In this document: positions 10,540 through 63,930 of the stretch, piece after piece
Numbering within the stretch: position 1 is the stretch's first letter
Layout: every line of letters starts with the position of its first letter
DNA from: Diplonema papillatum
Lineage: Eukaryota; Euglenozoa; Diplonemea; Diplonemida; Diplonemidae
Direction of reading: 5' to 3'
Assembly (NCBI GenBank): GCA_030068145.1
Contig: JAPJBO010000850.1
Coordinates: forward strand, 35,317-99,316
Length of the DNA stretch: 64,000 nt
Notes under the pieces: model-generated
The model's input: the letters and a program-made list of their open reading frames with translations, nothing else
The model's database searches: none
What the model was told of the DNA's origin: nothing
Program-made: the position numbers and the translations under genes

Positions 10540-12208
10540 TCACAGCTGGCCGCAGTTGGTGATCACCACCGGGACGTGGGGCACGTGGCTCCGTAGGGTG
10601 GGCGTCTCCTCCATGCGGTCAAGAACGTCGTGGCCTTCGACCACCTTTCCAAAGGCCACGTGCTTGCCGTCCAACCATGCTGTCTTGGTCAGCGTGAAGA
10701 AGAACTGCGAACCGTTCGTGTTCGGACCGTTGTTCGCCATCGATATGACGCCGCGCTGGTCGTGCGAAAGCTTGAAGTTCTCGTCCGCGAATCTGTGTGC
10801 GTGTTAGATCTCAGTTGTGAGTAACCCCTGCGCGGAATATAGCCCTTTTTTCCGCCCTTTTTTAAGTTGCTGCCGAGGCTCCTCGTGATGATTGCCCATT
10901 GTGCGGAGCTTTGTCTGGCACGGGCGTTTTGCCCCGTGGTTTACATGTTGCTGTGTGTGTGTATATGCTCACATTGCACGTGGCTAACAAAAGACCGTCC
11001 ACCGCGATAGTAGAAATGGTAATCGTGATAAACTTTCTTTTTGTTCCTTTTACGGCTATTCTCTCCTTTTATGCGTCTTTTGCTATCTATTGCTGGGAAT
11101 ACCGGTATTCCTGGACTTTTGGTGCTGATGGAAGGGATGAATCCGTTCACTTCACCCCCCACGTGGCGCTCGTTTAGCAGGGGCTGCCGAGTCGCACCGT
11201 GGCACCGTCCTTCTGTGAAGTAAACATAGTAATAAATACTGTTGTCTTCATTACCCTCGTAGCTCGCCGGGTCAGCATTCCATCGAGATGGAATTGTGTA
11301 TTGCCTTTTGGAGCGTGCCTACAATCACTGATTTAGCAGTGCTATAGGTTGGGCTCGTATTTTGGTAAGAGCTTTCCTGCAGTCATCGTCATACAAGACG
11401 ATGCTGCAGTCAGGCTCATTTCTATCGTGTGAGAGCTGGCGGCTGAGGGGATGAGGGTTGGGCTCCTCGCTTTCTTTTCCTCTGTTGTTGTGTTGTTTGC
11501 TTCTTTTTCCTTTTTCTGTGGTTCCAACCAGTGTTTTCTTTTAGTTGCCGTATGATGGTAGTATTGCTACCAGACGCTTTTCATACCCCAAGGCTGAAGG
11601 ATATGGCGCGCAGTCAGTGTTTTCACCACTTCTGCGTGACTTTATTGTGACGTCAGTTGCGTTCCGAAAAAAGCACTGCGCCTTTGCCGAATCCTCCACT
11701 GGTAGCTCTGGCGAGACCCATGTGGTAGACTGGACGAAGAAATGGTAATCGTGATAAATAAGAAAGAAGAAAGGGGCCTAGAGCTTTCGTTGACCGCACT
11801 ACCCTGAACCCAAATTCCTGGACGTGGTTTCAGGTGGCAAAGTAGCAAATGTTCATGATCAGAAGGTCCTACTTGAACGGTTCAGTTTCCTCACACACTG
11901 CATGCGGCTGAAAAGAAAACACACTTTTTCCCATACACACTCACCCCGCCTTGCCCATTGCCGTGCGTGAAGTCGCCACCTTGTATAATGAATTGCTCGA
12001 CGTGTCTGTGAAAGCACGAGCCTTTGTAGTGCAGGATGTTGCCGTGGGTGTCCTTGCCGAGCTCCCCGGTGCACAGTACGCGAAAGTTTTCAGCCGTCCG
12101 CGGCACGATGTCGCTACGGAGCTCGACAACCAACCGACCAGCCGGCAGTGACCCTACTGTGATATCCAAGAAACATCTGACCCGCTCGGGTCCGGTGGAT
12201 GGCGACAT
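10540..12208 (-). CDS. Cyclophilin-type peptidyl-prolyl cis-trans isomerase (two exons)
   Basis: Exon 1 is 12208-11925 and exon 2 is 10792-10540, joined across a 1132-bp GT-AG intron; phases agree and give 178 residues. The protein has the full single-domain cyclophilin signature: CFLDITVG and AGRLVVEL near the start, [24 protein letters not shown] (residues 66-81, with the catalytic Arg at 68), GNGQGG, the junction [23 protein letters not shown], and [10 protein letters not shown] with the conserved Trp. The loop GKDTHGN after CTGE is of the divergent type. It catalyses proline isomerisation; no signal peptide is visible, so cytosolic or nuclear. A strong pyrimidine tract and acceptor at 12259/12258, in frame upstream of the ATG, means an extra N-terminal exon is possible. 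The intron holds an R3 repeat starting at the donor. Confidence 0.9.
11770..11924 (+). repeat. R3 copy abutting the cyclophilin splice donor
   Basis: R3 sequence occupies the first ~155 bases of the cyclophilin intron. On the gene strand the donor GTGTGTTTTC is the beginning of the repeat. Confidence 0.75.
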
Positions 12209-12454
12209 ATCAGAACAACCCGCTTCTGACCCCCCCGCCCACTGCTTCTCCCACGCCACTTGGAGAGAGGGGATGAGAGAGAACACAAGCAACCCAACCA
12301 AGTCAAAGGGTGTGAACCTCCACCGTCACAGGTGCGGCTTCCTCTGGGAGAAACAGGAGCGGTAGTCACGCCTTAGCAGCAGCCCGGTGCCTTTCATGTG
12401 TTCTCGTAGTCAGCGCTACCGTGCGGATCTTTCCCGAGAAACTGGGTGATGGTC

Positions 12455-12700
12455 CCCTTCAAGCCCGGTCGATCGATGTGGTCAGCAGGGTCGTCAAATG
12501 TGCAATCACTTCAGATTTCTTCGCGCATTCCCTTTCGGCAATCCTGCACGTCCGAGTAAGCTCGTCAGTGGCAGCTTTGAGACGAGCAATTACACCTTGT
12601 CTCAGGACCGACGGCGACACACATATCTGGATTGCGCTGTTACATAGATTGGGCCCTTTCCCACGCCGACGAGAGTTCCTCTCGTCCTACCAGGTTATGC
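12455..12700 (-). CDS. Possible coiled-coil exon, low confidence
   Basis: A minus frame without a start reads QGVIARLKAATDELTRTC and IAERECAKKSEVIAHL before a stop. The composition and heptad spacing look coding. It lies just upstream of the cyclophilin gene on the same strand and could be part of a 5' exon, since a donor-like CAAG|GTGTAA splits it in a phase that would fit the acceptor at 12258. It could equally be a fragment of another gene. Confidence 0.2.
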
Positions 12701-12828
12701 TGTATGGCTCTCTCTCCATCAGTAGGGTAAACCCACGGTCTAAACCTCCCTGTTAGTGGGTGAAGTCCGGGCGAGGTTCGATGATGATGTTACCAACAAG
12801 CCCTTGGAGTGCATCTCCGTAAGCCCCT

Positions 12829-12897
12829 GAGAGCGTGGGGATCCAAGATGATCAGATACCGTCGTAGTCCACTGCTGTCAACGATGCCGTCTCAGGA
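12829..12897 (+). rRNA. 18S rRNA-like fragment, copy 1
   Basis: About 69 bp resemble the conserved small-subunit rRNA stretch around AGATACCGTCGTAGTCC ... AAACGATGCCG, here with TCAACGATGCCG. It is far too short to be a gene and is probably an inserted rDNA fragment. A second copy is at 36071-36148. Confidence 0.5.
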
Positions 12898-13226
12898 TCG
12901 AGGGAGGACAAGTGTTTGCTTTGTTCTCGGCATGGTCTTGGTGTGCTGAAAAACGCGAAGGCGGGACAACGAAAGGCCTACACGGGACATAGCAGAGGTT
13001 CGGAAGCCAACGTTTGCGCTGGGAGACCGCAGCGTTCCGGTTTTACCCAATTCGCCTTGCGGTGCTCACCGTGAAATGGAAGACAAGAGGTAGTTGGGGG
13101 AGGGTGGCCGTCCGCATTCCCTGCGAGCGACTCCTTTGCTTCGTCTTCCACACAACGAAGAACGGGTCTGAAGGACAGCATGGAACATCCCGATTGGCAA
13201 ATGACTGCGAGCGTACCGTTCAAAAA

Positions 13227-14684: not shown

Positions 14685-16901
14685 CTACGGTATGTTGAGT
14701 CGGCTCTTGACCTCTTCCACGACGACGTCATCGAAGCCCAGCGACGGGAGGAACGCCGGGAGCGACTTGACGGGAAGGCCTTGCACGATTCCCCACATCG
14801 GATGGCCCTTTCCGAGCTCAAGCTCGTCGAACAGCTCTTCGACGACCCCCGCGGTGCGCTCGTCGCCCGACCAGTCGTGCACAGTGTCGTCGACGGTCGG
14901 CAGCACCCGGCACTCGGTGTCCGACTCGTGGCAAATGCACAAAATCTCGTGAATCTCCCGCGACGACGACCCGATCCTGATCTCAAACCTTCCCGACTCC
15001 TCGGCAAACCGGCCGAGGTGCGTGACGAAGTACGAAAACGCGGTCTCGTCGAGCTGGATGCTGACCTTCTTTTTCTCACCAGGACCCAGGAAGACCTTGG
15101 CGAAGCCCTTCAGCTCCTGCTCGGGCCGCCGGTAGGTCGATTTTTCGTCGTGGATGTACACTTGGACGACTTCAGCGCCTGCGACGGCGCCGGTGTTGGT
15201 CACGGTGACGGTGACGACGCGCGTGGTCGACTCGTAGTCGGAGCTCGAGAACTTGAAGGAAGTGTACGACAAGCCGAATCCGAACGGGTACTGCACGGGC
15301 AACTTCTTTGTGTCGTAGTACCGGTAGCCGACGAAGATGCCCTCGGTGTACTTGGTGTCAGATCGGCCGCCGGGGAACGTCTCGTAGGTGGGGTTGTGCT
15401 CGAGGCGCTCCGGGAAGGTTTCAGAGAGCTTGCCGCTGGGGTTGACCTCGCCGTACAGCACGCGGGCGACCGCTTCGCCGCCGCCTTCGCCGGGCAACCC
15501 GGCGTATAGGATGGCGGGGGCGTGAGGGTCGATGGCGCGGGTCTCCAAGGCGGAGCCGCTGTAGAGTACGACGACCAGCTTCTGGTTTGCCCGGTACAGC
15601 GCTTCGATAAGCTTGCTGTGGGTGGGGGGCAGCAGCAGCGAGGCGCGGTCGACGCCTTCGCCTTCGGCGTCTTCAGTCGTTCCCGTGAAGAATACGACTT
15701 GGTCCGCCTTCGCGGCGGCCTGCACGGCCTCCTCGACGAAGGAATCGGTCGATTTCCCCGACATCGCGTACCCGGCGGCCCACAGGATGTTCTTCTGCCG
15801 CGCCCGACACGAGTCGTATGCATTGGTGAGGTTCTTCGCGGCGACGCGGCTGCTGCCGGTCCCTTGGTACCGCGGGCTCCCCGCGAACTGGCCGATGAGC
15901 GCGGTGGTCTTCTGCTTGTCGAGGGGCAGGGCGCGCTTGCTGTTCTTGAGCAGCACGAGCCCTTCCTGCGCGACGGCGACCGCAAGGTCGTGCCGCGCCT
16001 TCGAGTCGATCGCCTCGGCCGAGCTCTGCTCCCAGCTCTCCTTGACGGTGTTCGCCGCATTGACGGCTTCGAGCACCCGCGACACCCGCTCGTCGATCGT
16101 CTTCTCCTGGATCGCCCCACTCTCCAGACCCTTCAACAGCTCCGCGTCTCGCCTCCCGGGGCCGGGCATCTCTAAATCGAGGCCTTCTCGGTGGGCTGCT
16201 ACCTTATGCTTCACCGCGCCCCAGTCGGACAGGACCAAGCCTTTGAACCCGAGACGCTCGCGCAGGATCGAAGTGAGGAGGAACGTGTGGTTGGTGCACG
16301 TAGTCCCGTTCACCGAGTTGTACGCTGCCATCACCGCCCAAGGCTTCGCCTTCTTGATGACGCGGGCGAAGGGGAAGAGGTAGATTTCGTGGAGCGGCCG
16401 CTCGCTGATGACGGAGTTCACGACCAGCCGGCGCGTCTCCTGCTCGTTGCCGACGTAGTGCTTGAGGCAGGCGCCGACGCCGCGGGACTGGAGGCCCTTG
16501 ACGAAGGCGACGGCCATCTCCGAGGCGAGGAACGGGTCCTCGGAGAAATACTCGAAGTTCCTCCCTGCGAGGGGGCTGCGCTTGCCGTTGACGCCGGGGC
16601 CCAGCAGCAGGTGGACGCGCAGGCTGCGGCACTCGTCGCCGATCGCCTGCGCCGCGGCCTGGACGAGCTTCGGGTTCCACGTGCTCGCCATCGTCGCCTC
16701 CACCGGAAACGCGGTCGCCTCGACGCTGGCACCGGGGGTGCCGTCCTTCGCCAACCGGACCCCGTGGGCCCCGTCAGTCATCCGCATTGAAGGGATCCCC
16801 AGCCTTTCGACTTCGTGCGTCTGCCATTCGTCCTTCCCGCACAGCAGCCGGACCTTCTCCTGGCGGGTGAGATCCTTCAGCACGTCGCCGACGTCGAACA
16901 T
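14685..16901 (-). CDS. Glycoside hydrolase family 3 beta-glucosidase, single exon
   Basis: An uninterrupted 738-codon frame from ATG 16901 to the stop at 14685. The protein shows the GH3 order: an N-terminal barrel with MTDGAHGVR (41-49), GPGVNGKRSPLAGRNFEYFSE (101-121), KHYVGNEQE (147-155) and GLVLSDWGA, where Asp226 is the expected nucleophile; a second alpha/beta domain; then a fibronectin-III-like domain starting near PFGFGLSYTSF. This arrangement is typical of beta-glucosidases that release terminal glucose from oligosaccharides or glucosides. No PA14 insert is seen. The last ~75 residues (CHESDTECRVL to the end) are an extra tail not usual in the family. No signal peptide is visible, so it is probably intracellular. 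An in-frame start further up (GTG at 16976) is possible, but ATG 16901 fits the family's N-terminus. It is GC-rich and intron-free, unlike its spliced neighbours. Confidence 0.93.
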   Translation of the reverse strand: MFDVGDVLKDLTRQEKVRLLCGKDEWQTHEVERLGIPSMRMTDGAHGVRLAKDGTPGASVEATAFPVEATMASTWNPKLVQAAAQAIGDECRSLRVHLLLGPGVNGKRSPLAGRNFEYFSEDPFLASEMAVAFVKGLQSRGVGACLKHYVGNEQETRRLVVNSVISERPLHEIYLFPFARVIKKAKPWAVMAAYNSVNGTTCTNHTFLLTSILRERLGFKGLVLSDWGAVKHKVAAHREGLDLEMPGPGRRDAELLKGLESGAIQEKTIDERVSRVLEAVNAANTVKESWEQSSAEAIDSKARHDLAVAVAQEGLVLLKNSKRALPLDKQKTTALIGQFAGSPRYQGTGSSRVAAKNLTNAYDSCRARQKNILWAAGYAMSGKSTDSFVEEAVQAAAKADQVVFFTGTTEDAEGEGVDRASLLLPPTHSKLIEALYRANQKLVVVLYSGSALETRAIDPHAPAILYAGLPGEGGGEAVARVLYGEVNPSGKLSETFPERLEHNPTYETFPGGRSDTKYTEGIFVGYRYYDTKKLPVQYPFGFGLSYTSFKFSSSDYESTTRVVTVTVTNTGAVAGAEVVQVYIHDEKSTYRRPEQELKGFAKVFLGPGEKKKVSIQLDETAFSYFVTHLGRFAEESGRFEIRIGSSSREIHEILCICHESDTECRVLPTVDDTVHDWSGDERTAGVVEELFDELELGKGHPMWGIVQGLPVKSLPAFLPSLGFDDVVVEEVKSRLNIP

Positions 16902-17143
16902 TGTACCTGCGGGCTTTCTCCCTACCTCCTCAGGCCTCGGCCCCCTTGAATTTGGCGCTTCGTAGAAGACAGACACGCTGGTTGAGTCTTTGAGGAAAGG
17001 GAAGGGGGGTACTTTTTAGTGTAACGTTTAGAACATGCCTCTCCTCTCATACATGAATGTGATGTAAGCATCAAGTCTTCTTTTTTTCGAAGGAGATGGT
17101 GTACACAGAATAAATGCAAAAAAAAAAAATGGGAACGGCCCGG

Positions 17144-17520
17144 AAACGCGGTCGCCTCGACGCTGGCGCCGGGGCTGCCGTCCTTCGCAAGGCGGACCCC
17201 CATGGAGCCCGTCTGCCATCCGCATGGGGATCCCCAGCCTTTCGACTTAGCAGCTGGACCTTCTCCTGGCGGGTGAGCTCCTTCTGCACGTCGCCGACGT
17301 CGAACATTGTACCTGCGGGCTTTCTCCCTACCTCCTCAGGCCTCGGCCCCCTTGAATTTGGCGCCTCGTAGAAGACAGACACGCTGGTTGAGTCTTTGAG
17401 GAAAGGGAAGGGGGGTACTTTTTAGTGTAACGTTTAGAACATGCCTCTCCTCTCATACATGAATGTGATGTAAGCATCAAGTCTTCTTTTTTTCGAAGGA
17501 GATGGTGTACACAGAATAAA
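17144..17520 (-). pseudogene. Truncated copy 1 of the GH3 5' end
   Basis: Matches the first ~65 codons of the GH3 gene plus its upstream R2-containing flank. It keeps MFDVGDVQKELTRQEKVQLL but lacks about 30 bp after the codons for ERLG..., is frameshifted, and ends abruptly at GTTTCCGGGCC. A non-functional tandem copy. Confidence 0.85.
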
Positions 17521-17524
17521 TGCA

Positions 17525-17745
17525 AAATACTCGAGGGGCTGCCTTGTGCTTACTTCGAAGGAGGCTAGAGGGGGAGAAACAATACAACTACAAAATGGGT
17601 CTTTTTTGTTGAACGCTTACGCCCGCCACTAAACCCAGATTCACCTGTGTTTCGTGTGGGCTACAGCACATTTACCTCCTTTGATCTTTGCAACTGGCAG
17701 CCTCCTCAAGTATTTCCTACAAAGCAGGTGCTTATACAAAAAAGA
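17525..17745 (+). repeat. R1 inserted between GH3 5'-end copies
   Basis: A full R1 sits in the A-run that joins copy 1 to copy 2, so R1 arrived after the tandem duplication. Confidence 0.8.
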
Positions 17746-18140
17746 AAATGGGAACGGCCCGGAAACGCGGTCGCCTCGACGCTGGCGCCGGGGCTGCCGT
17801 CCTTCGCAAGGCGGACCCCGTGGGGCCCGTCTGCCATCCGCATGGGGATCCCCAGCCTTTCGACTTAGCAGCTGGACCTTCTCCTGGCGGGTGAGCTCCT
17901 TCTGCACGTCGCCGACGTCGAACATTGTACCTGCGGGCTTTCTCCCTACCTCCTCAGGCCTCGGCCCCCTTGAATTTGGCGCTTCGTAGAAGACAGACAC
18001 GCTGGTTGAGTCTTTGAGGAAAGGGAAGGGGGGTACTTTTTAATGTAACGTTTAGAACATGCCTCTCCCCTCATACATGAATGTGATGTAAGCATCAAGT
18101 CTTCTTTTTTTCGAAGAAGATGGTGTACACAGAATAAATG
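17746..18140 (-). pseudogene. Truncated copy 2 of the GH3 5' end
   Basis: Nearly identical to copy 1, with the same internal deletion and the same break at GTTTCCGGGCC, and followed by the same R2-containing flank. Confidence 0.85.
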
Positions 18141-18146
18141 CAAAAA

Positions 18147-18420
18147 AAAATGGGAACGCCTGCGCCGCGGCCCGGAAACGCGGTCGCCTCGACGCTGGCG
18201 CCGGGGCTGCCGTCCTTCGCAAGGCGGACCCCGTGGGGCCCATCCACATGGGGATCCCCAGCCTTTCGACTTAGCCGCTGGACCTTCTCCTGGCGGGTGA
18301 GCTCCTTCAGCACGTCGCCGACGTCGAACACTGTACCTGCGGGCTTTCTCCCCTTCCTCCCTACCTCCTCAGGCCTCGGCCCCCTTGAATTTGGCGCTTC
18401 GTGCACAAGGAGACTTACAC
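18147..18420 (-). pseudogene. Truncated copy 3 of the GH3 5' end
   Basis: Carries the same deletion as copies 1 and 2 but retains an extra piece of parent sequence (GCCTGCGCCGCGGCC) at its broken end and a short insertion near the start codon, and its upstream flank differs. It may represent the oldest copy, from which the other two were amplified. Confidence 0.8.
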
Positions 18421-18505: not shown

Positions 18506-19608
18506 AAAAGAATAGGCGCGATGTTTGTTTGTACGTGCCGGGGGAGGACTAGCCTGTTAGTGAGTGATAGTGAGTGAATATGATCGGTAGGCTAATCTTC
18601 TCCCAAACACGCTGCCAGCGTTCTCTTTCGTGTTTACAATTAATTGTTATTACGAAAACGTGGCCGCTTGGCGAGCTCACGGTGTGCAAGAATTCGGTCC
18701 CTTGAGGTGCATGAAATTGCCTGGCGCTGTCCTTAATTGCTGACGCAGACTAACGCCATAGAATCTCTGCAGTCCGACTTCAAGCTTTTGACGGGTATCG
18801 TGGTCCGTCAGAGGGATAGACCGGCCACATTATTTTTAGACAAGCCCTGGCTCCACCGGGATGGGCCGTCTCGACTTGAAAGACTGCCTTCGATCACGCA
18901 CACACGTACACGTCTTCCACCGCAGGTTCAAGGCGCGTGATACGAACAAAAGGTGGAAAAACGCACGACTTAACGAAAAACTGATGCCAGAGGAAACGCG
19001 AATTCGAACGTTTTTTCGGCGGGAAAAAAGAAAGGACAGGACAGCTGATTCCGGAATGGAAGCACGGCGGTGCGGTGTGCTGCGCGTTACGTCTGACAGC
19101 GATGGTGGCGTGGGGCATGCGCGGAGGATAAAGTGCGGGGGTGGGGCCATGATTCGTTCTAGGACCCTCTGTCTGACCCGCAGTGCAGCGGCGTTACCCG
19201 ATTTCCTCTGCTCCATTCGCGCAGCCCGGCGTGCGTTTCCCCTGCCCGCGCAAGCGTTCCGAAAACGTGTCGACGCGGTCGAGCGCGGATCTACCCTACG
19301 AGGAGGACGCAGTTCGTGTGGCTAAGTCGGCCCACCTGGGACCACCTTCCCTTTTTTTGCCGAGAAAGAAAGCAGCGGTTTGCTGGGGGACGCACGCCCC
19401 CCCTCCCCACCCCACATGCAGGTCGAATCTGTCAAGTCAAAGAACGCTATTCCGGTGACCCCTCTCGGTCTATCGTCGTGCCAAATGAGAAAAAAAAAAT
19501 GTCGGAAAAAAACGCGGGCACAGGAAAGACTCTTCTTGGCGAAGGGTGGAGCGAAGGCACCCACCCGCGGCAGGAGGGGAGGGGGAGGCGCTGGCGTCGG
19601 GACCCTTC
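18506..19608. other. Intergenic, unassigned
   Basis: Frames of 126 (minus) and 154 (plus) codons overlap at 18836-19325; neither resembles a known protein. The 3' part is the downstream flank of eL39 copy A and contains short C and A runs. Confidence 0.35.
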
Positions 19609-19764
19609 TTACATCTTCAACTTGGTGCGCCTCCAGTGGCGTCTCTTGCTGTTCCACCGAATGACCTTCCCGGTCTTGAATCGCGCGAACCACGGCACCG
19701 GCCGGTTGATCCGCATCTTCTTAGCATAGTGCAGCTTGAGCGTCAACGTCTTGATCGCACCCAT
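19609..19764 (-). CDS. RPL39: 60S ribosomal protein eL39, copy A
   Basis: A 52-codon frame from ATG 19764 to TAA 19609 encodes 51 residues, exactly the usual eL39 length. The C-terminal half carries the family signature: [13 protein letters not shown], then [16 protein letters not shown]. eL39 is a small basic protein lining the exit tunnel of the large ribosomal subunit. The gene is too short to stand out as a long frame; the longer plus-strand frame over it is a shadow. The 45 bp before the ATG (AGGGACAGAAATAAAGAAA, gene strand) are shared with copy B. Confidence 0.93.
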
Positions 19765-20505
19765 CTTGCTTTATTTTTCTTTATTTCTGTCCCTGGGTGT
19801 GGCCGGGTGAGGTCGTAGCGTTTTGTACACGATATATGCCAACTTGCTTATTTGACGGCGTTTGATGATTGACTCATTCTTGGTGCTCCCTAGCGGCGGC
19901 ACGTTCTGATTTCCGATTTCCATAGCAATTTGGGCAAGCACAACCATTGCGCTAGACGCGATAGTCAATGGGAATTGCAAAAGCATGAGACTCCTCAGGT
20001 CGTCGAACGCATTAGCGGGCTGGGTTCGCCCAAGCCCATCAGCAGCTGGGTGTCGCTTGAAAACCTATTCTCTCAGACTGCGCTTCCGACCCTTCACTCG
20101 ATGTACCCTATGGCGCCTAGTGCCCTGCGCTGCAGCATTTAATGGCACAATTTATTCACATCCTTGGTGCTGCTTGATCCTTCTCTCGCCGCTTCTCTGA
20201 CGACTCTTCCGGCACCACAGCGCTGTGACCTCTTGCATCTAGATCTTCAGCATTTCTCTAGCCGCCGTACATACACAGCATACACTAGCATTGGCACGCG
20301 TTTCTTGAACCCGGTCTCTACGTTGTCACTTGCTTCAAGCACTGTGACAGCAACATATGTATGCCTGCCTTTCTGCAGCTACTTGTTGGACGGCACTGCC
20401 TTCTTCAAGCCGACTTCATGCGAGGAGAAAGGAAAGTAGGAGCAGGAAAGACTTCGGGGAAGAAAACATCCCGTCAGGGCATCGTATATGAAAGGGCTAC
20501 ACCTC
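19765..20505. other. Spacer between eL39 copies A and B
   Basis: 741 bp. The first ~45 bp are the shared upstream block. The rest shows no coding frame or repeat that I can place. It should hold the promoter of copy A and the 3' end of copy B. Confidence 0.4.
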
Positions 20506-20661
20506 TTACATCTTCAACTTGGTGCGCCTCCAGTGGCGTCTCTTGCTGTTCCAGCGAATGACCTTGCCCGTTTTGAACCGGGCGAACCATGGCACGGGTC
20601 GGTTGATCCTCATCTTCTTAGCATAGTGCAGCTTGAGCGTCAACGTCTTGATCGCACCCAT
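20506..20661 (-). CDS. RPL39: 60S ribosomal protein eL39, copy B
   Basis: ATG 20661 to TAA 20506; the 51-residue product is identical to copies A and C. In the first two thirds it differs from the others only at synonymous sites (for example AGG for CGG), while the last ~45 bp, from AACAGCAAGAGACGCCACTG to the stop, are identical in all three. It shares its immediate 5' flank with copy A. Likely functional. Confidence 0.93.
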
Positions 20662-22112: not shown

Positions 22113-22188
22113 CTTGCGAAAGGAAGAAAAGAGGGTACGTGCAAAAAAAAATCCCTTTTTTCCGCGTGCGAGAAGCCGCGCCGGCTTC

Positions 22189-22344
22189 TTACATCTTCAA
22201 CTTGGTGCGCCTCCAGTGGCGTCTCTTGCTGTTCCACCTGATGACCTTCCCGGTCTTGAACCGCGCGAACCACGGCACCGGCCGGTTGATCCGCATCTTC
22301 TTCGCATAGTGCAGCTTCAGCGTCAACGTCTTGATGGCGCCCAT
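22189..22344 (-). CDS. RPL39: 60S ribosomal protein eL39, copy C
   Basis: ATG 22344 to TAA 22189; the 51-residue product is identical to copies A and B. Its sequence is GC-rich and very close to copy A, but its 5' flank (GGCACGACA before the ATG) is unrelated to the shared block of A and B, so it has a different promoter context. Confidence 0.93.
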
Positions 22345-25596: not shown

Positions 25597-28500
25597 CTAC
25601 TCTGCAGGCGGGCGTCCTTTGCCGGGGTCGGCCTGGTCTATGAGCTCGTTGACGTACGCCTGCAGCTCCTTGTTGTTCTCGAGCAGGAGCCGGTTTTCGT
25701 TTCTGATTGATTTAGGTTGAAAGTCTCCCGGTGGCCACTGTCGAAAGGGTTCGGTCGAAAAGCAGGCGTGTATATTTCTGTAAGGAGCAGGAATGGGTCT
25801 TTGTGGTCTGTTTGCAGTCATGCGTCGTTTGCGTACGGCAGCAAGTGGTATTGGTGCCAGCGCTGTGTCGGTATCAAAGGTGATAATTGGCATCTATTGG
25901 TCAGTCGGGCGAAGAAGTCGGACGTAAAAAGATGAGCTAACTACGACTCCGCCCTGCGAAGTAGATTTAGTTCCACGCGCACCGAGTCATGTTTTCCAGC
26001 ACTTGCGCGCACTCGAGCCTTTTGTCGTTGCGCGGTTGTCGCTTTTAGGCCTTTCTTCTTTAGAGTTAAAGTTCGCTCGAAATTCCGGGGGTTTAGGGTC
26101 TCCGTGTGACCATTGAGAAATGGGTTCTCTTAGAGCAAGAAAGGGCTACATGGTTACGGGGGGTTTTTTTTTGTATAAGCACCTGCTTTGTAGGAAATGC
26201 TTGAGGAGACTGCCAGTTGCGATAGATCAAAGGAGGTAAATGTGCTGTAGCCCACACGAAACACAGGTAAATCTGGGTTTAGTGGCGGGCGTAAGCGTTC
26301 AACAAAAATGACCCACTTTGTAGTTGTATTGTTTTCTCCCCCTCTAGCCTCCTTCGAGATGAGCACAAGGCAGTCCCTCGAGTATTTTTTGTACAAGCAC
26401 CCTGCTATATATTTGTTTGTTGGAAAATAGTTCTTTCCGAATTCGTGCATGGCGGTGCGGACATTGTCTTCCGGGAGTCAGTCAGAATTGGCATCCATGG
26501 CTGCTTTTTGCCGACACCTTTACCAAGGAGCCAACAAGTTGCCAGACGCCAGAGGCTGGACTCCATCGTGTAAATTCGACTTTGTCTACGTGACGTTCCA
26601 CCCAGATGAAGGATTGAAGAACACACTCAACAACAGTGGGGCGCAATGCACGGCTAAGTGCATTGGAAAGAAATGCGTAGTTTGGTTTACTTTCAGCGTC
26701 TTTTCATCAGCCTTTTAGTGACGGTGTTTTTGGTTTTCTTTCTTCACCATGGATGCATTGGAAAGAAAGGTGGATACCCGAGTAGCGCGTTTTCGGTATC
26801 TCTTCGCTCGATGCGCTCTTCCAGCTGACTCAGCTGATGCCTGTTGGTTTGGGTCCGTTCGTGGTGACTCTGTCCTTGGTTCTGGGGGCGCGAGTCTCGT
26901 CAACAATTTCCTGCAGCATTACCCGTCCGGCGTTTGTGTCGACGAGGCTACAGGAGGGAACACTAATAATAATAGATTTTGTTCTTCGCGTGTACAGGGT
27001 ATAAACCTCTCTGGGGGGGGTTTTCCTGTATTAGCACTTTTTTCGTTGGCTTCGTTTTCTCTTTCATGTGCAACCGTTGTTCCGGAAATGTTCCCGTCAG
27101 TACAGATGTACTATTAAAAAATAATAAGCCTAGATTCGAAGGGCCTCTCCCCACCCACCTACATTGGTTCTCGCTGCCATGCTACCGCGCTGACAATTTC
27201 GAGAGACGAGTTAGAGAGATGCAGCGATCAGCTATCCAGGGAGTTTCCGGTCTCCACACTTCCTCTCGAGAGAAAGATGGCATACTCTCGCTCCCGGAAA
27301 AAGATGGCGTAGTCTTCGAGCTTGCTCTCGAGGTCGAGGTTCGTTTGGTGCAGCTTGCCGACCTGCTCCTCCAGGTCTTCCACCTTCGCGTCCTTAGCCA
27401 CGAGGGACTCGGACGAAAGCGCGTGCACAGACTTGAGGCGGGAGAGCTGCCCTCGCAGGTCCTCCAGCTGCGCCTGCTGGCTGGTGATCATCCGATCGCG
27501 CTTACGGAGCTGGCTCTCCCACTCGAGCTTCCGCTGGTAGAGGAAGGCCTTCACCTCGTGCTCCGTGTACGTCCTGTCCTCCTCGTCCGCCTCGCTGCGC
27601 TGCCGGTCCGCAGAGGCGTCGGGCGACGGCTTCCCGTTGCTCAGCCTCGCGATGAGGTGCTGCAGCTCCCGGCTGACGGCTTGCCTGCCTTCGAACCTCG
27701 GCGCGGCCGCTGCCAAAGACGCCGTCACGTTCTGCGAGACAGCTGCGGAGGGGGGAATTCTTAGTTTGATGTTTAGAAGCAGGATACTGCCTCTCATGCA
27801 TGTCTGATGCTAGCATCAAGCATGGGCAACGTAATTCTTGGGTACGAAGCTGCGCAAAGCGACCGGCCTGAAGCATGACATGGTACGATCGAAGGGCAGT
27901 CACTCAGTGACTAATTTCACGGTACACCATGGTGTCTATCAGGAGGGGGTTTGCGGAGGAGCGTTTGATGCTAGCATCAAGTTGGGTGCGGGCAGTTGTT
28001 CTCTGTGTTTGGTACCGTGGTTGATAGTCGTCGCGCGGTTCGTGCTGACCTGAGGTAGCACGATTCCTTAGCCGCAGTAGCGTAGTCCACCTGTTGAATG
28101 CACACAAGAGTAGGCATTTGTTTGTACGTGCCGGGTCTTCGAGAAGATGTTGCATAGAAGGAATGCAATCGGGGAAGGGCGGATCGTCAACGACAGAACT
28201 ATTTCGCTAGCAACCAAGTGATCAGGTTGTCCGAGGGTGGTAAGAAATCGCATACCTGCCGGCAGTGTGGACAAAGCGCTGAACACGCTGTTTGCAAGCA
28301 TAAGGAGAAGAAGAAGCTCAGTATCCGAGCAGTCCGGGGCTCCCTGATGAGTTAAAGAGTTGAGTCGGTGAATTACGAGTGAGTGTAAATTGTGAGGTTG
28401 CGTGCGATGTGTGAGAGAAGTTGGAACCTACGAGAAAGTCGGCGAACTATGAATTTGGGTTGCGAAGTCTAAGCCTGGAGGGAAAATGTTATGCTTACGA

Positions 28501-36148: not shown

Positions 36149-36209
36149 AAAAGAAAGCAACAGCGATTGCTCCCAATAACGGCGTCCTTGGAGAGCATAC
36201 TTGTTACAG

Positions 36210-44306: not shown

Positions 44307-47300
44307 TCAAGAAGTCTTTTTGATCAATGATGCCCGAGAACGGGGCCGTTCGTTGTGATCCAGGTTCGCCGAAGACTGGTTGCGGAGGGCGTGGGTGAAG
44401 CCGCGCGCGGCTCGGACCATGCCGAAGCCCGGCAGGTTCTTCGAGCTGAAGGGGAGCGACGCCTCCGGACCCTTGGTCCAAGGCCGCGTGGCATGCGGAC
44501 GGCGCTGCAGGCCCGCGCTGATGAAGACGTCGGAGATCGGCTTGAAGATGTCGGTTCTCAACCGCATCAGCGAGTGCAGCGCGGTTTCGAGCGCCGGGCT
44601 GTGGTCCGGCGGCAACTGGGCCAGCAGCGAGTCAGTCATCGCCGCACTACGGTGGTGGCTCGGCTTCTGCAGCCACTGGTAGGCGCGGTTCAGGCACGCG
44701 ATGTCGCGGTCGGAGACGGTCGGGCTCCGGGCTGCGATGCCGACGAGCTTCGCCATCATCAGCGGGGAGGTATCGTGCGGGGCGAAGCGGACGGCCGCGG
44801 AGCAGACCGTCGCCGCGTCGGCGGGCGTGATGGCGTCGGCGTCGAGGCTGACGATCAAGTGCTTCAAGTACAACGGCCGGCCGGGTAAGTCAAGCTTCTC
44901 GCAGTCGCGCAGTATCGCACACACGTCCCTATGGGTTGTTTCGTGTTTCCGACGATTCCGCATAGGGGCGTACAGCCTGTTGTCTTTCGACCTTTGTGCT
45001 AGTGAGGTTCAGCTTCGTGTGTGTGGTCCTTTTTAAGATGGATTGTGTCTGCGCTCTCTCTCCCTTAAGGTTGCCGCCCGAGGGAACCGGCTGTGAGCCG
45101 AAACCCGGCGCCGGTCTCTCCGGACTGCACCAGGAGAGAACTTTGCGGCGGATCACAAAGCACCCGCCCTGCACGTCCTCCTGGCTACCGAAATTTCGGG
45201 CACATTAGACCCCGAAATGTAACAAACCTCGAAAACAATCTTCGACCGGAAAAATGTCATGGCGGGGGCCTACCGGCCTGAAGGCCGACGCCCGCTCACT
45301 CTGCCACCCCCTTGCCTTTTGGCAGGGGGAAAAAAAGCTAGTATCTAGTCCAAAAACAATACACTTTTCGCAACTTAGAAAGCCGGGATGGCTTGCATGT
45401 TCATAGGACCTCCAGTCTCGAATAAATTTGATATGAGACGATGCCAAAAGGGGGGGAGGGGGGGGGGTTTGGGCAGATGTTTTCTGGCATAGTAAGATAC
45501 TGGGCAAGTGGGGTGTAGGACCTCCACCCCCCCAAAAACTCTGTTTGCGAGCCGGTTTCGAGCTAGTATGCTCTCGGCGAGCCTTTTTTTGATCACAAAA
45601 CGCTGTTTTCTGGATTTTGAGGCCCCAGGTAGGGTAACGCCTGTACAACAATGACTTTGACGCAGCACCCACCCACCAAAGGAACTGATGTTGTCGAAAC
45701 ATCGGTTGAAGAATTCGCGAGGCAAGATGTGTATACGAAGTACGATAGGTCATCGGGCACCACGAAGAGACGCTTCAATGCGACGAGAGCCTTTCTGGAG
45801 AAGGGGTCGCAGGAGCTGTCCCCGATCGGGTTCGTTGTATCTCTGTGTACAGAGACTGAGAAGGCCCGAATCTGGCGTGAGGTGTCCGGTTCATGTCCTG
45901 AAATGTTCAACAGCATCACGCACGAGCTTACACGGCGCAAGATCGTGCAGAGATACAACGAACCCGATCGGGTCAGCTCCTGCGAGCTTCTCCAGAAAGG
46001 CTCTCGTCGCTTTGAAGCGTCTCTTCATGGTGCCCGATGACCTATCGTACTTCGTATACGTCTTGCCTCGCGAATTCTTCAACCGATGTTTCGACATCAC
46101 GCATTCCTGAGTCGCGCATTATAAGAATTTGTTCAGTTCCTTTGGTGGGTGGGTGCTGCGTCAAAGTCATTGTACAGGCGTTACCCTACCTGGGGCCTCA
46201 AAATCCAGAAAAACAGCGGTTTGTGCCCAAAACAAGGCTCGGCGAGAGCATACGAGCTCGAAATCGGCTCGCAAACATGGTTTTTGTGTAGGTCCTATAC
46301 CCCACTTGCCCAGCATCTTACTATGCCAGAAAACATCTGCCCAAACCCCTCCCCTTTTGGCATCGTACCATATAAATCCTTTGCCAGTGGACACTTTGAA
46401 CAAAACGAGCAAATAATGAGATAGCCACCTGCGCCGCAGGCGTGTCTAACAAATGCAATTTGTCAAGAACAAAAACAGATCGATGGCAGTTAGATGAACA
46501 AAACAGGTTTGAAGGAAGTGCGCACAAACAAAAAATTGGAGGCTTTTCGTGTCAGGGGCGGGACGAAGATCCCGAAAACTGGCATTTTGTCACAGCGGTC
46601 TGCCCAAAGAGTATTTGAGAGCACAAGAACTCATGATAAGGGATGATGAGGATAGCATTGTCCTCCCCTCTTCACAGTTTTGTGTTGAACTCAGTCAGTT
46701 TTGACACCAAATGTGACAAGATGCTCGTATCATCAGCCACATCTTGTGCCCCAGGCACAGATGTTTTTGAAGCCACTAAGCCAGTCCGTGCCGCGGTTTC
46801 AAAGTAGAAAGATTCTACACAGACTTCATGAACAGTACCAGTCACAAGCTGCACCCACACGGGTTCACTCCTACACCCCAGGTACCAGGCCGGAGGAATT
46901 CCCCAGGACCCCCCGGAGGAATATCTCCGGGGCATTTTTCAGCACTTTTCTTTTTTGAGGAATTCCTCCGGAATTCCTTAGCGGGAGCACTGCTCCCCTA
47001 AGTTGTCTTTTCGCACAAGGGCACACCTGTGATCGATGACGGACGTCGGGAAAACACCGCGGGCTTCAAAATTGTCCAACATTCTCGCCAGCAGCGGCTT
47101 GCTACTGAGCGGTTTCATAGACGCGAACGTGAAGGCCACTCTGGCAAGACTTTGCAGGGACAGATGTTCCAGAGCACGGCTCCGTATGAGCTCTTTGAGC
47201 ACGGATGCCGCCAGGTGTAAAGCCACAGGGCGGTCGTTGGAGAGGACGATCAAGCGCAGCACCTTGGTGACGTCTTTGCTCTTCGAGTTGTCGGAGATGG

Positions 47301-49336
47301 CGCTCTGGGTCAGCGCCGCGGCCAACCGAGAGTCCCTCGACTCGGACGCTGCGAACGCCAGCGCGATGTCGCCCGCCAGCACGGGCGCAACGCTATGCTT
47401 CACAATGCGCTCTCCGAGGACTTGCAGCATCTCCAGGTTTTTAAACCGGAGCTGATGCATCCCCCAGAGGGCCTGGTGCATCTCCGCGTCACTCAGCTGC
47501 TTCACGTCGCCCTGATGAAAGTGGAAAGGGAAATGGAGCTGGGGATGGTTTTGCGGAATGTCAATTAAAAAGTAGTGAACCGGTCCCTATCTCCTGAAAC
47601 TGCATCGAAGTGCCTGCCGCTGTTTATCACAGTGAATCACGGTCCACCACGGTCTATCAGGTCCATCTCTAGTCCCTAGAGCTGCATCGAATTGCCCGGT
47701 GCTGTATTCTTCGGCCTATCACGGAAAGAGGTGCGTAGTTTTGTTTATTCTTTTACGTGATAGTTGTCGACAACTTGTTTTGAGGGGATGGACCGGAACT
47801 CTGCTGCTGATATGCGCCGGTTGATTGTTTTCCCACTTGCATTTAAAGGGGGGAAAAACTTAGTTTAATGTTTAGGCAGAACACTGCCTCGCATGCATGT
47901 TTGACGCTAGCATCAAGTCTTCGTCGAAGAAAGTGTAAAACAAAATAGGGGAAAGAGAAAAAGGGTCGGAGTGTAAGACTCCGCAGATAGGGTCTGGAAC
48001 CTTGAGGGACTATTCCTCTTTGTTCGTTTTTTCACCGCGGCTCCATTTTCAGTAGGAATTCTGATCAACTGTTAGCCTGAAGGGCAACCCGCAAGATTGC
48101 AAGCGAGGCGTGAATATACGGTGCTTTTCACAGTACGCCGCCAACCGCCACTTTTTGATAATGACAACTGTTTGAAGGATGGTGGGAAGAGAGTGTTGTT
48201 TTCGCTGAACGCATTTCCTCCAACATTTCATAAAATATACTCGAGGGACTGTCTTATGCTCATCTCGAAGGAGGCTAGAGTGGGAGAAAAAAATACAACT
48301 ACAAAGTGCGTCTTTTTTCTTGAACGCTTACGCCCGACACTAAACCCAGATTTACCTGTGTTTCGTGTGGGCTACAGCACATTTACCACCTTTGATCTAT
48401 CGCAACTGGCAGTCTCCTCAAGCATTTCCTACAAAGCAGGTGCTTGTACAAGAATACTCGAGGGGCTGCCTTGTGCTTACTTCGAAGGAGGCTAGAGGGG
48501 GAGAAACAATACAACTACAAAATGGGTCTTTTTTGTTGAACGCTTACGCCCACCACTGAACCCAGGTTCACCTGTGTTTCGTGTGGGCTACAGCACATTT
48601 ACCTCCTTTGATCTTTTGCAGCTGGCAGCCTCCTCAGGTATTTCCTACAAAGCAGGTGCTTGTGCAAAAATCAATCCCGTACCTTGTGGTGTATAACGGC
48701 GTGGCTCAGGCGGTGGACGACGAACGCCGCGAGGTCGTCTGGGCACGCGACGTCCGGGCGGTGCAGCGCCTTCAGGTGGCCGAGGCTGTACGTGATGCAC
48801 GCCCACGCGTGGCAGTCCGCCGCCGGCGGCTGCGCGGCCACCCGCGCCAGGATGGACCCGACCGCGTCCCCCGGCACGCCGGCCCGGAGGCTTGCGGCCG
48901 CCAGCAGGAACTGGCTGCACCCCGTCAAGTCCAACGCCTGCTCCCCGACGACGCTGCGCAGCAGCGTCTCGTGCACAGGGTGCGACGGCGTCAACTTTGC
49001 CTTCGCAAACGCCTGGACCAACACCGTTCGGTCCACCATTCCGCAGTTGCCCCGCACAATTTCAGGGTCGACCGGCGCCCCCGCTGCGGCGCCGGCCAGC
49101 AGGCCCTCCGCCGCCGCGTCGGCAGCTTCGAGGCAGGCGCGGGCGCGGTCTGCTCCATCCAGCGCGTCCGCCATCGGCGGAGCCTTTCGCCCGCGGCCGT
49201 CGCCGGCGCTGTCCTTCGCCACCCGCACGAGGTCCCGCCACGTCAGCCAGCAGCGGGGTGCAACGCGCGGGTGCTCGAACAGCCCGTGTCCGGCTATATA
49301 CCGCGGGAGGCTGGTTCGGGCAGAGGCGGCGGCCAT
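44307..49336 (-). CDS. Helical-repeat (HPR/FASTK-like) protein, probably organellar (three exons)
   Basis: Exons 49336-48683, 47511-47027 and 44928-44307 join in phase (0, then 2) with GT-AG sites and give 586 residues. The protein is a string of short paired helices typical of heptatricopeptide/FASTK-type RNA-binding proteins: SLQSLARVAFTFASMKPLSS, DVCAILRDCEKLDLPGRPLY, ITPADAATVCSAAVRFAPHD, PLMMAKLVGIAARSPTVSDR and ETALHSLMRLRTDIFKPISD. In relatives such proteins act on mitochondrial or plastid RNA. No C-terminal RAP domain is present; either it is absent or further exons were missed. The first ~30 residues are Arg-rich with one acidic residue, compatible with an organelle-targeting peptide. 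The intron between exons 2 and 3 (2.1 kb) contains foldback element FB2 nested in repeat R10; the first intron contains R1, R2 and R8. Confidence 0.75.
45431..46373. mobile_element. Foldback element FB2 in a host intron
   Basis: Arms 45431-45860 and 45945-46373 are inverted copies around a ~90-bp loop. The ends are ATATGAGACGATGCCAAAAG and its near complement. Both arms carry CAGCACCCACCCACCAAAGG and GTACGATAGGTCATCGGGCA stretches. The same terminal sequence bounds a smaller element at 54947-55216. The 130-codon frame across the loop has no recognised function. Confidence 0.85.
46374..46990 (-). repeat. Dispersed repeat R10
   Basis: A ~600-bp repeat whose second copy is at 59850-60410 in the opposite orientation. 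Marks: GGAATTCCTCCGG runs, GGCCTGGTACC, GGCACAAGATGTGGCTGATG on the other strand, CGCCTGCGGCGCAGG. FB2 appears to have inserted into it, since the R10 sequence AAATTTGATATGA continues on the far side at about 45420-45436. Confidence 0.75.
47590..47800 (+). repeat. R8 copy in the first intron of the helical-repeat gene
   Basis: Carries CTGCATCGAAGTGC, CACGGTCTATCAGGTCCATC and GGGGATGGACCGG, with a ~60-bp insertion near 47720-47785. Confidence 0.7.
47845..47945 (+). repeat. R2 copy
   Basis: Near-complete R2: CTTAGTTTAATGTTTAGGCA, GCATGCATG, CGCTAGCATCAAGTCTTCGT. Confidence 0.7.
48235..48668 (+). repeat. Two R1 copies in direct tandem
   Basis: 48235-48455 and 48456-48668, head to tail, joined at GTGCTTGTACAAGAATACTC. 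The second ends 14 nt from the exon 1 donor of the helical-repeat gene. Confidence 0.85.
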
Positions 49337-49439
49337 GTCGGCGGGGCCGCCCTAATGGGCGCCTTCTTCGGTTGCGGTCGACGGCCTTCTCCGGTTGGTG
49401 GCCAACTGCTTAGCTACGTGTACCCGCTATGAGATACGA

Positions 49440-61059: not shown

Positions 61060-61093
<34 letters not shown>

Positions 61094-62052
61094 CCCCCCA
61101 GGTGTGGCCCTAAAGCGTGAATGTAAATAGAGATTTTGCCCAAACACATTTTTTTGCACTTTTCTTTTGCACTTTTTTTGCACCAGGCTACAGCCAGGCC
61201 TTACGTTCAGCATGCTAAACGTACTGATTTCAGCACGTTAATTCTTTTAGTTTCTCGTTGCACACATGCTGAATCAGTACGTTATCAGCACATATCTTGT
61301 GTCCAAGATGCCACCCGAAGGCCACCCAAGCAGGCCCATGCAGGTCTTTCGAAGAACTGGTGGAGGAGGGAGCAAGCTGGCTTGGATGTCTGCACATGAC
61401 AGGCATACCCGTTTCTTCGGGCTTACGCGAGTGGGGGAATTGGGTGTATCATACCGTTTTTTCGGCTCGCTACGCGAGCCGAAGAAGGGGATGATAAATA
61501 CTCCATATACTTCGATGACCGCCAGGGCCGCATATGATATGATCATTCATCAGAGTGCAAGAGACAAGTTACCACAGTCCGGAAAGCAAAACAGACATAG
61601 CATGCCGTGTGGCTCGGCTCGATTTTTTTGTTCGATGAAGAACTATTCAGAAATGTTTTGTGACCAAGCTAGGAGCCTCTGGTCTTAGCTTTATATTGCA
61701 AGCATTGACACACCATTCGAGTTCCTGTTGGAACTTGCGCCTGACAAACTTCCGATTGTGATGATGGTGATCTTAGCGGCAGTGCTGGTACAACCTCCTT
61801 AGCACAGACGACAGAAAGAAAGCGAAAGCGCGAAGAGATCCGACATTCCTCCGTCCGAAATATTTCACCCTCTCAGTGTAGCTACGATCCAAAACGGGTG
61901 CAAAAACAGGCGGAAAAAGTGCAAAATAACGTAAATAGGATCTTGGATTTTGCCCAAAAAGAGCGTAAATAGGGCCACACGTGCCTCCCCCTGTCCAGTT
62001 CCCCGTAGTTCCCCCGGTTGAACTACGGGGAACTGGCCCACCGACCACACCA
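59552..62052. mobile_element. 2501-bp TIR transposon inserted in R1, TSD TACAA
   Basis: Begins TGGTGTGGTCGGT and ends ACCGACCACACCA (13-bp perfect inverted repeats). It is flanked by TACAA on both sides (59547-59551 and 62053-62057), and the two flanks together restore an ordinary R1. Inside each end are repeated GGGGAACTACGGG words. The interior holds a copy of R10 (59850-60410), long A runs at 60740-60845 and 61029-61088, and no recognisable transposase frame. It is probably non-autonomous. Confidence 0.85.
59850..60410 (+). repeat. R10 copy inside the 2.5-kb element
   Basis: Opposite orientation to 46374-46990; similarity continues to CATATCAAATTTATAAGG. Confidence 0.75.
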
Positions 62053-62212
62053 TACAAAGTGGGTCTTTTTTGTTGAACGCTTACGCCGCCACTGAACCCA
62101 GATTGTTACCTGTGTTTTGTGTGGGCTACAGCACATTTACCTTTTTGAGATTTCGCAATTGGCAGTCTCGTCAAGTATTTCCTACAAAGCAGGTGCTTAT
62201 ACAAGAATCGTA
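62053..62212 (+). repeat. Right part of the split R1
   Basis: TACAAAGTGGGTCTTTTTTG to GCAGGTGCTTATACAAGAA. It ends ~42 nt from the MLO exon's possible donor. Confidence 0.85.
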
Positions 62213-62246
62213 GTTTGTAGGTGCGGGGGGGGTCAGGGGGGTTAGG

Positions 62247-63697
62247 TTACTTACAACACGGGGTGTCGTCTGGCACACTCGCAACTCGCATACCTTGCGC
62301 GTCGTGGATGGCTGCCTGGAAGACGCCCTCGCCGTAGGCTTCGTTGGCGCTCAGCCCCCGCTCGGCGGGGGGCGTGTACATGTGGGACACTCGGGGCGAT
62401 TGGGTGGCGGCTTGGTCGCGTCTGCGAGACCCGCCGCCGTTGCGGGACGAGATGACCAACTCTCCCGTCGGGCTGTTGACCTGCGTCATCTCGTAGTCCA
62501 AGAGCGACATGGCCTTGTCCTTCGGGATGCCGTCGTCGTAGTCGTCGTACGCGTTGGCGTAGTGCTGGTTTTTCGAATCGTTCGAGCCGTTCTCGTGCTT
62601 GGGGCTGTGCGAGTGCGAGTTGTCGTGCGTGAGGATTTTATGCGGCGAAATGTCCCGCAGGGTCTTCGTGAGGTTGTACAGCGTAGGGCGGCTCGTGAGG
62701 AAAACCAGGGTATACAACAGCAGCACCCGGGGCAGGGCGTAGAATAGGGGGTACAGCGGGACGAGCCAGCAGACCAGCAACCCTAAGGCGGTTAACTCTT
62801 CGTAGATCAAGGGGGTGAGCATCGCGAGCTGGCCCATGTAGAAGCACATCGAAAACGTCAGGACTTGGATACCAGCCCGGTAGTGCTGTTCGTTCGGGTA
62901 CCAGAAGGACCCGTTCCCGCGGACGCGCTCCCACGGGGTGACGTCCTTCCAAGGGTCGCCGATGCCGGCGGACTGGAACGTGGCTTTGTTGTCGACCTCC
63001 GGGTGCGTGACCGCGCCGTAGTAGACCTGTTTGTACACGTCGGGATGCTCTTCGATGAGGTCGACGAGCTTCGTGAACTTCGCCTCCAGCCGCCACCAGA
63101 TGCCGAGGGTGATGATCGGGAGGATGAAGCCGCTCACCAAGACGGTGACGGGCAGCGAGACGTCGGCCAGCTTGACCAGGTTGATCGCGGCGACGCCGAG
63201 CATAACGAACCAGACCCACGAGGGCACGTGGATGAGCTCCACTAGCAGTTCGCTGTACATGAGCTTCGCGTACTTGCCGAAGTTGAAGTGCTCGGGCGCC
63301 TGGTCCTGGGGGGGCATCCCGGGCGGCGCCGGGTCGCCCCGCAGCTCCGCGAAAGCGAGCTCGTGCTCGTGCGCCTTCCGCGCGCAGATGAACCGCATCT
63401 TGCTCGCGCGCGTGATGCACATCGCGGCGCGGACGACGAGCACCTTGCGCGCGAACTTGCACTTCGCGAACTTCCCCTTCGTCTCCATCTCCAGCATCCG
63501 CCAGCTGCTTGGCGTGAACTGGTGGAACTCCTTCATGTCGTGCCCGTAGCGGTCCCGCCAGTAGAAGCAGATTTGAATGTACACGCAGTAGATGATGCCC
63601 ATGAAGAAGAGCGCCATGTGCGCGTATTGGAAGAGCTCGATGTCGAACCCGTACCCGCAGGCCGCAGATGCGGAATCCTCGTCCGCGTCGCAGGTTC
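62247..63697 (-). CDS. MLO-like multi-pass membrane protein, main exon (5' incomplete)
   Basis: After an acceptor CATCACAG (first exon base 63697) the minus strand is open to a TAA at 62247, about 482 residues. A transmembrane helix HMALFFMGIIYCVYIQICFY is followed by a basic loop; FNFGKYAKLMYSELLVELIH leads into a helix pair (WVWFVMLGVAAINLV; VTVLVSGFILPIITLGIWW) and RLEAKFTKLVDLIEEHP, then FWYPNEQHYRAGIQVLTFSM and a last cluster of hydrophobic segments. This order matches MLO proteins (F.F..Y, helix, LE..IT.LA, FWF, helix). MLO proteins are seven-pass membrane proteins, in plants tied to calcium signalling. The first transmembrane segment must lie in an exon beyond the window. The soluble tail is polar, rich in His/Asn/Ser/Asp. 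The coding end is ambiguous: TAA overlaps a strong donor TT|GTAAGT at 62255/62254. Confidence 0.85.
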
Positions 63698-63759
63698 CTG
63701 TGATGAAGAATTTAAGACGCTCCGTGAGTGGAGTGCAACAAACCCACAAGCAAACCCGT

Positions 63760-63930
63760 ACACCGCGAGAGTAGGAGAAAGTAGAAAGAGGAAACTGGAG
63801 TTTTCGTTGACCGCACTACCCTGAGCCCAAATCCTGGACGTGGTTTCAGGTGGCAAATTCGCAAATGATCACGATCAGAAGGTCCTACTTGGGCGGTTCA
63901 GTTTCCGCGCACATTGCATATGTGGCTAAA
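63760..63930 (+). repeat. R3 copy in the upstream MLO intron
   Basis: Full R3, GAGAGTAGGAGAAAGTAG to CACATTGCATATGTGGC, ~60 bp upstream of the MLO acceptor. 63955-64000 is the GTATTGTATTTG block seen in R6, inverted. Confidence 0.75.

Follow-up and report, generated by a model that had tools for sequence, protein, structure and literature searches.

Tails of retroposon-like repeats facing exons at intron edges in a repeat-rich stretch of the Diplonema papillatum genome

The stretch of Diplonema papillatum DNA analysed here, 64,000 nucleotides (nt) long and called the window throughout, raises the question of whether dispersed repeats create introns or settle in them. It covers positions 35,317 to 99,316 of contig JAPJBO010000850.1 (assembly GCA_030068145.1), the terminal part of a contig of 99,316 bases in an assembly of 271 Mb. 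An earlier note on this DNA had reported that at six of eight splice donors a dispersed repeat starts within about 45 nt, with the families R1 and R3 always in the same orientation relative to the gene, and had likened these repeats to introners, elements that create or colonise introns. A better description of the pattern is that retroposon tails lie at the intron edge and face the exon. The placement of tails near the exon edge is mildly above chance, and the whole looks like mobile-element insertion aided by matching sequence, with no proof that the repeats make introns.

The intron of the cyclophilin gene (minus strand) has such a tail at either end. The upstream exon (11925..12250, start approximate) is followed by the donor GT 11924-11923 and the last exon (10543..10792) is preceded by the acceptor AG 10794-10793, as judged from in-frame cyclophilin motifs and Pfam Pro_isomerase matches on the contig, and the two exons splice in frame (YGKK-FADENF). 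An A-tailed R3 copy, defined by BLAST edges and alignments, lies antisense to the gene at 11760..11922 (plus strand), and its homology edge at 11922 places its T-run side 2 nt from the donor, given the exon end at 11925, in agreement with the 0-5 nt of the earlier note. By eye, the rest of this copy appears to resume near 11006, past an inserted unit of about 727 bp (11012..11758, minus strand) that is flanked by direct repeats of about 20 bp and has 59 scored matches and 1588 first-look candidates; elsewhere this unit occurs in near-identical head-to-tail copies, of which the first unit is partial. The tandem units suggested hammerhead or other ribozymes, which were rejected since Rfam gave no such match in the window at E values up to 5. 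At the other end of the intron, the start points of the matches and the tail sequence define an R12 copy in sense to the gene (10794..10953, minus strand), whose (CA)n tail runs up to the acceptor CACAG.

An independent set of splice sites was taken from split genes in the Pfam tables for cyclophilin and Ras (75 and 109 matches), the sites being read by homology. The sample comprised 37 donors and 29 acceptors, leaving out L098, L103, L104, L106 and L111 (donor unreadable) and L117 and L120 (acceptor unclear or duplicate); L numbers denote sampled loci. Matches to the DEAD and AAA families were considered as a further source of introns and not used, those listed mostly spanning the domain in one open frame. 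Repeats were identified by BLAST against the fetched loci and the window, excluding self and paralogous loci, and the expected counts came from shuffling the repeats at random within their own introns; P values for the five distance thresholds are uncorrected. Nine of the 37 donors have a repeat start no more than 20 nt away, against 3.5 expected (P=0.003), and 12 have one no more than 45 nt away, against 7.3 (P=0.022). The counts were 4 against 1.8 at 10 nt (P=0.10), 15 against 11.0 at 75 nt (P=0.06) and 17 against 13.4 at 100 nt (P=0.08), and an earlier run with fewer loci gave nearly identical numbers. The acceptors showed no significant excess (3/29 against 2.4 within 20 nt; 7/29 against 4.9 within 45 nt, P=0.17). 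The near-donor excess is modest and limited to the first tens of nucleotides: judged by the test that the earlier note proposed, repeats are not spread evenly along introns, but the effect is far under its six of eight. In these independent introns the A-tailed families lie with the T-run first 12 times and in the other direction 3 times, a tally in which arrays were counted once, R12 and one ambiguous match were excluded, and two queries came from the set itself. The suggestion that repeats colonise introns is borne out, since all 16 fully read introns of at least 400 nt contain them; five of the six introns shorter than 300 nt have none, and in the other one (L084) the sole match was to a paralogous intron.

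It is the tails of the repeats, not their heads, that face exons. Flanks of 140 nt were scored for codon bias with a cut-off of 9.5, which about 4% of random windows outside known exons reach. Among unique flanks, exon-like sequence was found at 3 of 34 tail sides of R3 and 2 of 17 of R1, compared with none of the 37 and 18 head sides, respectively; pooled, this is 5/51 against 0/55 (one-sided Fisher p of about 0.023, calculated by hand), the two window copies L031 and L051 being excluded. For R12, of which the tail sides alone were scored, 6 of 25 unique flanks were exon-like, where about 4% would be expected. This count derives from 30 tail flanks among 39 listed copies outside the window, with L142-L146 counted once and L157, which has no sequence past the microsatellite, omitted.

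R1 (about 217 bp) and R3 (about 175 bp) have 942 and 577 first-look candidates in the genome, respectively, and are found singly and in head-to-tail arrays with partial units. The copies of these families and of R12 examined were the best-scoring matches, and the sample is therefore biased to young copies. Read tail-last, R1 and R3 have, by eye, an A-run at the head and a usually longer one at the tail, and no clean pair of terminal inverted repeats was seen at the two ends. Several copies begin in the tail of another family (by eye); arrays and mixed chains therefore have a single orientation, as if primed on older tails. Partial R1 copies occur at 62053 and 59490; the second is missing its tail side, a form at odds with 5' truncation. 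Coding segments with a score of at least 8 are absent within 260 nt on either side of 27 of the 38 R3 copies; among 20 R3 loci, 10 have a best coding segment scoring above 30, and in 8 of these its direction agrees with the T-run-first one. R3 lies at most 15 nt from the donor in the non-homologous introns of cyclophilin, L032 (about 9 nt) and L125 (about 14 nt), and 7 nt away in L131, where the score is borderline; in L043 the distance is 31-39 nt. In L058 about 7-11 nt separate the R1 tail from the donor, and in L060 the tail and the acceptor are 6 nt apart. In L032 the exon is followed by GTATCCTAC, a T-run and R3, in L125 by GTATCTCGTTTACC and R3, and in L058 by GTATGCAAGGG, a T-run and R1; L060 has the opposite arrangement, with R1, an A-run and then CCACAG before the exon. 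Among the sampled loci, and considering the best 28 of 32 matches, the tail of another A-tailed family, F26, adjoins the acceptor in L118 and twice in L028.

The 3' end of the cyclophilin intron holds 160 bases of R12 (259 first-look candidates), which extends further in other copies. Of the 40 non-partial matches listed, 31 begin at query base 15 or 16 (10794-10795), and the non-tail end stops at differing points in L140, L152, L153 and L158, indicating variable truncation. Six copies, selected for exon-like tail flanks, were read to the far end; beyond it (TG)n appears again in three (L152, L153, L158), as if the element had been inserted in a (TG)n tract. The tail is at the acceptor in cyclophilin, L140, L153 and L158 and at the donor in L096 and L152. 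In these settled cases the junction is at the tail, which provides a GTGTG donor in antisense and an acceptor in sense. In L152 the element lies between two (TG)n stretches directly after the donor, and the proposed acceptor is tens of bases past the far (TG)n; in L093 it is in the middle of the intron. Less certain cases, under the score cut-off, are L150, L154, L177, the duplicated L142-L146 and L171 (donor about 57 nt off). The frame in L150 is RNase H-like (Pfam E value of 6.8e-5, under the cut-off of that family) and could belong to a retroelement. The other R12 flanks are non-coding in look or still microsatellite. The five contigs of L142-L146 have the same R12 copy and the same flank in the fetched stretch, and a larger duplicated segment is therefore likely.

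The edges of the introns themselves resemble these tails. The T fraction is 0.336 at intron positions 7-30, compared with 0.22-0.27 deeper, and T5 runs occur at 5.5 per kb at positions 7-60 against 1.4-2.2 beyond. The 45 bases before the 29 acceptors are A/C-rich, not T-rich, an unusual context in which CCAC, CACC, ACAC and AAAA are enriched; CTAAC, examined as a branch point, is not enriched there (1/29). Nine of the 29 acceptors end in CACAG and six of the 37 donors begin with GTGTG. With donor edges T-rich or GTGTG and acceptor ends A/C-rich, an A(n) or (CA)n tail thus fits a donor edge when antisense and an acceptor edge when in sense.

Within the window, the family numbers of the earlier note were undefined, and we paired them with repeats by position, a presumptive correspondence; exon calls beyond the cyclophilin and Ras genes are based on codon bias and open frames rather than on RNA. 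Including R3 at cyclophilin, four of the six donors are confirmed as having a repeat nearby. The helical-repeat gene, which matched no Pfam family at E 0.001, has an exon at 48683..49351 (minus strand; codon-bias segment 48698-49351) with the donor GT 48682 (CACAAG/GTACGG). Two tandem R1 copies identified by BLAST lie antisense to it at 48233..48678 (plus strand), their T-run side about 4-11 nt from the exon end at 48683 (edge at 48671, or 48678 with the larger library). At its second donor (ATCACAG/GTGTGC, GT at 47026) the edge of a repeat-covered stretch (46336..46992), probably the R10 of the earlier note, is about 34 nt away. In the coiled-coil gene, a repeat of the 665/31881 family (27201..27262, plus strand) begins about 22 nt past the proposed donor GCGAGA/GTATGC (GT 27285), provided that this donor is correct. 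The remaining two cases fared less well. At the other coiled-coil donor (TCGCAG/GTGTGC, 28654) a divergent copy is visible about 35 nt downstream by eye only; BLAST gives no repeat there, the closest interval being 28477-28530. After the MLO-like exon, a repeat interval (62020..62212, plus strand) with a partial R1 (62053-62209) is 42 nt from a candidate donor GTAAGT (62254) and about 81 nt from GTATGC (62293), a candidate of the commoner type; the claimed distance of about 42 nt requires the former and is doubtful because GTAAG is found in 1 of the 37 independent donors (GTATG in 20). Nor is the orientation of R1 constant, an R1 copy between two coiled-coil exons (26164..26390, minus strand) being reversed. 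An alignment also places a copy of the 6672/47845 family (27746..27823, plus strand) with its edge within about 5 nt of a proposed coiled-coil acceptor, and an R3 copy lies upstream of the MLO-like exon (63745..63943, plus strand), where contig and window end and the donor side is unreadable.

Taken as a whole, we favour retroposition that is primed by the tail at intron-edge tracts and filtered by selection, and give this reading a probability of about one half. The repeats would be several short non-autonomous retroposon families, with A-run tails (R1, R3 and their kin) or a (CA)n tail (R12), copied probably by the genome's own long interspersed nuclear elements (LINEs) via target-primed reverse transcription. 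The LINE-type endonuclease PF14529 has at least 150 scored matches and 688 first-look candidates, with open frames of up to 1638 aa. The RNA tail would pair with a complementary tract where the DNA is nicked, and such tracts would be available on the sense strand after donors, which is T-rich or GTGTG, and on the strand opposite the pre-acceptor stretch, which is T/G-rich. An element that paired at these tracts would therefore end up either antisense, its tail next to the donor, or in sense, its tail next to the acceptor; L152 illustrates such an insertion of R12, by priming on (TG)n after the donor. Selection, which surely acts as well, would then purge insertions that harm splicing, as sense insertions often would, and would spare donor-side insertions because a donor requires just a few intronic bases. 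The priming by tails, the use of the genome's LINEs and the share of selection are what we infer from these observations. SINEs (short interspersed nuclear elements) and other retroposons mobilised by LINEs are short units, some with microsatellite tails. The repeats resemble them in their short units, their simple 3' tails of A-runs or (CA)n, the variable 5' truncation seen in R12, the concatenation at tails and the LINE endonuclease genes that this genome carries. They differ in that no tRNA, 5S or 7SL head was identified (no dedicated search was run) and no target-site duplication (TSD) was seen by eye for R1 or R3; in R12, (TG)n flanks the element on both sides in three of six copies.

Several observations weigh against this reading. 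The donor excess is modest and comes from one sample and an incomplete repeat library, and two of the nine closest donor matches (L077, L092) are weak, at 70-73%. By eye, no TSD is readable beside R1 or R3. The orientation of R1 relative to the best coding segment is mixed among 20 loci (5 of 11 with any reported score, 3 of 5 above 30), and two of the six exon-like R12 flanks (L149 and L178) score better on the strand opposite to our reading, leaving donor or acceptor unsettled. The T-richness of the first 30 intron bases may be partly due to the elements themselves, and old tails may account for part of the A/C-richness of the acceptor ends. Antisense bias and tolerant donors could, moreover, yield most of the donor-side pattern without targeting.

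This last point leads to selection acting alone on random insertions, a possible explanation that we nevertheless consider somewhat unlikely. Copies in sense, or near the acceptor or branch point, would be lost, and survivors would be antisense and free to lie near donors; short ancestral introns (about 130-300 nt) would also put any insertion near an edge. The difference in repeat content between short and long introns and the fading of the donor excess by 75-100 nt agree with this. So do mammalian transposable elements, which are strongly donor-biased within 20 bp of exons, with an antisense bias that is stronger near exons for most classes, both attributed to selection (PMC3088655). Those elements are depleted near exons overall and fewer near acceptors (PMC3088655), whereas D. 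papillatum has an excess at donors and sense elements whose tails reach acceptors. Such sense tails, about 0-11 nt from the acceptor in cyclophilin, L140, L153, L158, L060 and L118, are not predicted by pure selection and count against it because selection should be strongest there; nor does it alone predict the exon-like sequence at the R12 tails. Chance is a very improbable source of the pattern. The genome is repeat-dense, with repeats covering 36.5% of the sampled donor-side introns and at least 23,723 of the 64,000 bases of the window (at least 37%, in 124 intervals; a lower bound from BLAST against the window and fetched loci), and tidy-looking donors may have been picked from an incomplete donor list, in which one of the six is doubtful and one repeat was seen by eye only. 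Set against this are the P value of 0.003 at 20 nt in independent donors and the exon-like flanks at 5/51 tails but 0/55 heads.

The introner question itself receives different answers for different families. Related sequences abut the splice sites of non-homologous introns, R3 at donors and R12 at the junctions of cyclophilin, L096, L140, L152, L153 and L158, as introners also stand beside splice sites of unrelated genes (PMC9860276). For R1 and R3 the role of introner was rejected in the introns read, and the suggestion that they create introns is not supported: their ends are not splice sites, the donors beside them (GTATG, GTATC or GTACG) fall outside the element, and in none of their introns read through is the element the whole intron. 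They are instead found inside longer mosaic introns of several families (R1 and/or R3 in cyclophilin, L032, L043, L048, L074 and L087). For R12, one terminus coincides with splice junctions, so that an introner-like role is conceivable. Quite improbable are introners of a retroposon type, R12 above all, that create introns or splice sites and possibly bring their own CTAAC as branch point. The R12 terminus does lie at the junction in both orientations, but no intron was found that is a single element from splice site to splice site, CTAAC shows no enrichment before acceptors, and R12 is in mid-intron in L093. In L152, the one copy followed as far as a proposed acceptor, its far end is tens of bases short of that acceptor, if it is correct, with (TG)n on both sides, which fits insertion into a pre-existing short intron. 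Another unlikely reading is that the R12 terminus serves as a two-way splice signal, GTGTG donor in antisense and CACAG-like acceptor in sense, by which intron boundaries across this genome are shifted or newly founded through a LINE-type mechanism, the A-tailed families doing so more weakly. In a survey of introners (PMC9860276), splice signals can come from the element or its target, TSDs are given for 49 of 130 and terminal inverted repeats for 72 of 177 classifiable families, and one heading has it that most may spread by DNA-based mechanisms. Introners constitute the intron (PMC9860276), whereas the elements described here are parts of mosaic introns and have simple tails. A literature search linking introners to non-long-terminal-repeat retrotransposons and intron gain found one paper (PMC11782384).

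The remaining content of the window is varied. The strongest codon-biased genes are on the minus strand (cyclophilin, glycosyl hydrolase 3, DLIC-like, helical-repeat, coiled-coil and MLO-like, the last with a 500-aa frame without Pfam match at E 0.001), and the plus strand has weaker coding-like segments, for example at about 5.3-5.8 kb. The largely one-way genes had suggested a dinoflagellate or other alveolate source, which was rejected: the window has no spliced-leader core at up to 1 mismatch, and alveolin (PF12314) gave no match. At 16703-18402, fragments from the 5' part of the neighbouring glycosyl hydrolase 3 gene stand in tandem, with an R1 copy (17524-17748) between two of the units. 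Three intron-free frames within 3 kb, at 19605-19809, 20504-20706 and 22185-22344 (minus strand), are copies of a frame that resembles ribosomal protein L39e, their similarity being largely restricted to the coding part. Short eukaryotic rRNA pieces are present at 22693-22836 (minus), 24429-24655 (plus), 36081-36230 (plus) and 12829-12962 (plus); two are large-subunit matches above the Rfam gathering score, which nothing else in the window reached, and two are small-subunit matches below it, with 69 bases in common at 97% identity. Two palindromic stretches match their own reverse complement (6886-8049, about 1.2 kb, 88%; 45428-46376, 0.95 kb, 79%), and an 18-bp unit is repeated nine times in perfect copies at 49514-49675.

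If it is true that retroposon tails aim at splice junctions or replace them, intron growth, and perhaps intron gain, would be tied to the LINE machinery. The tail-like composition of intron edges, if it is the true cause, would predict which families sit where and in which orientation.

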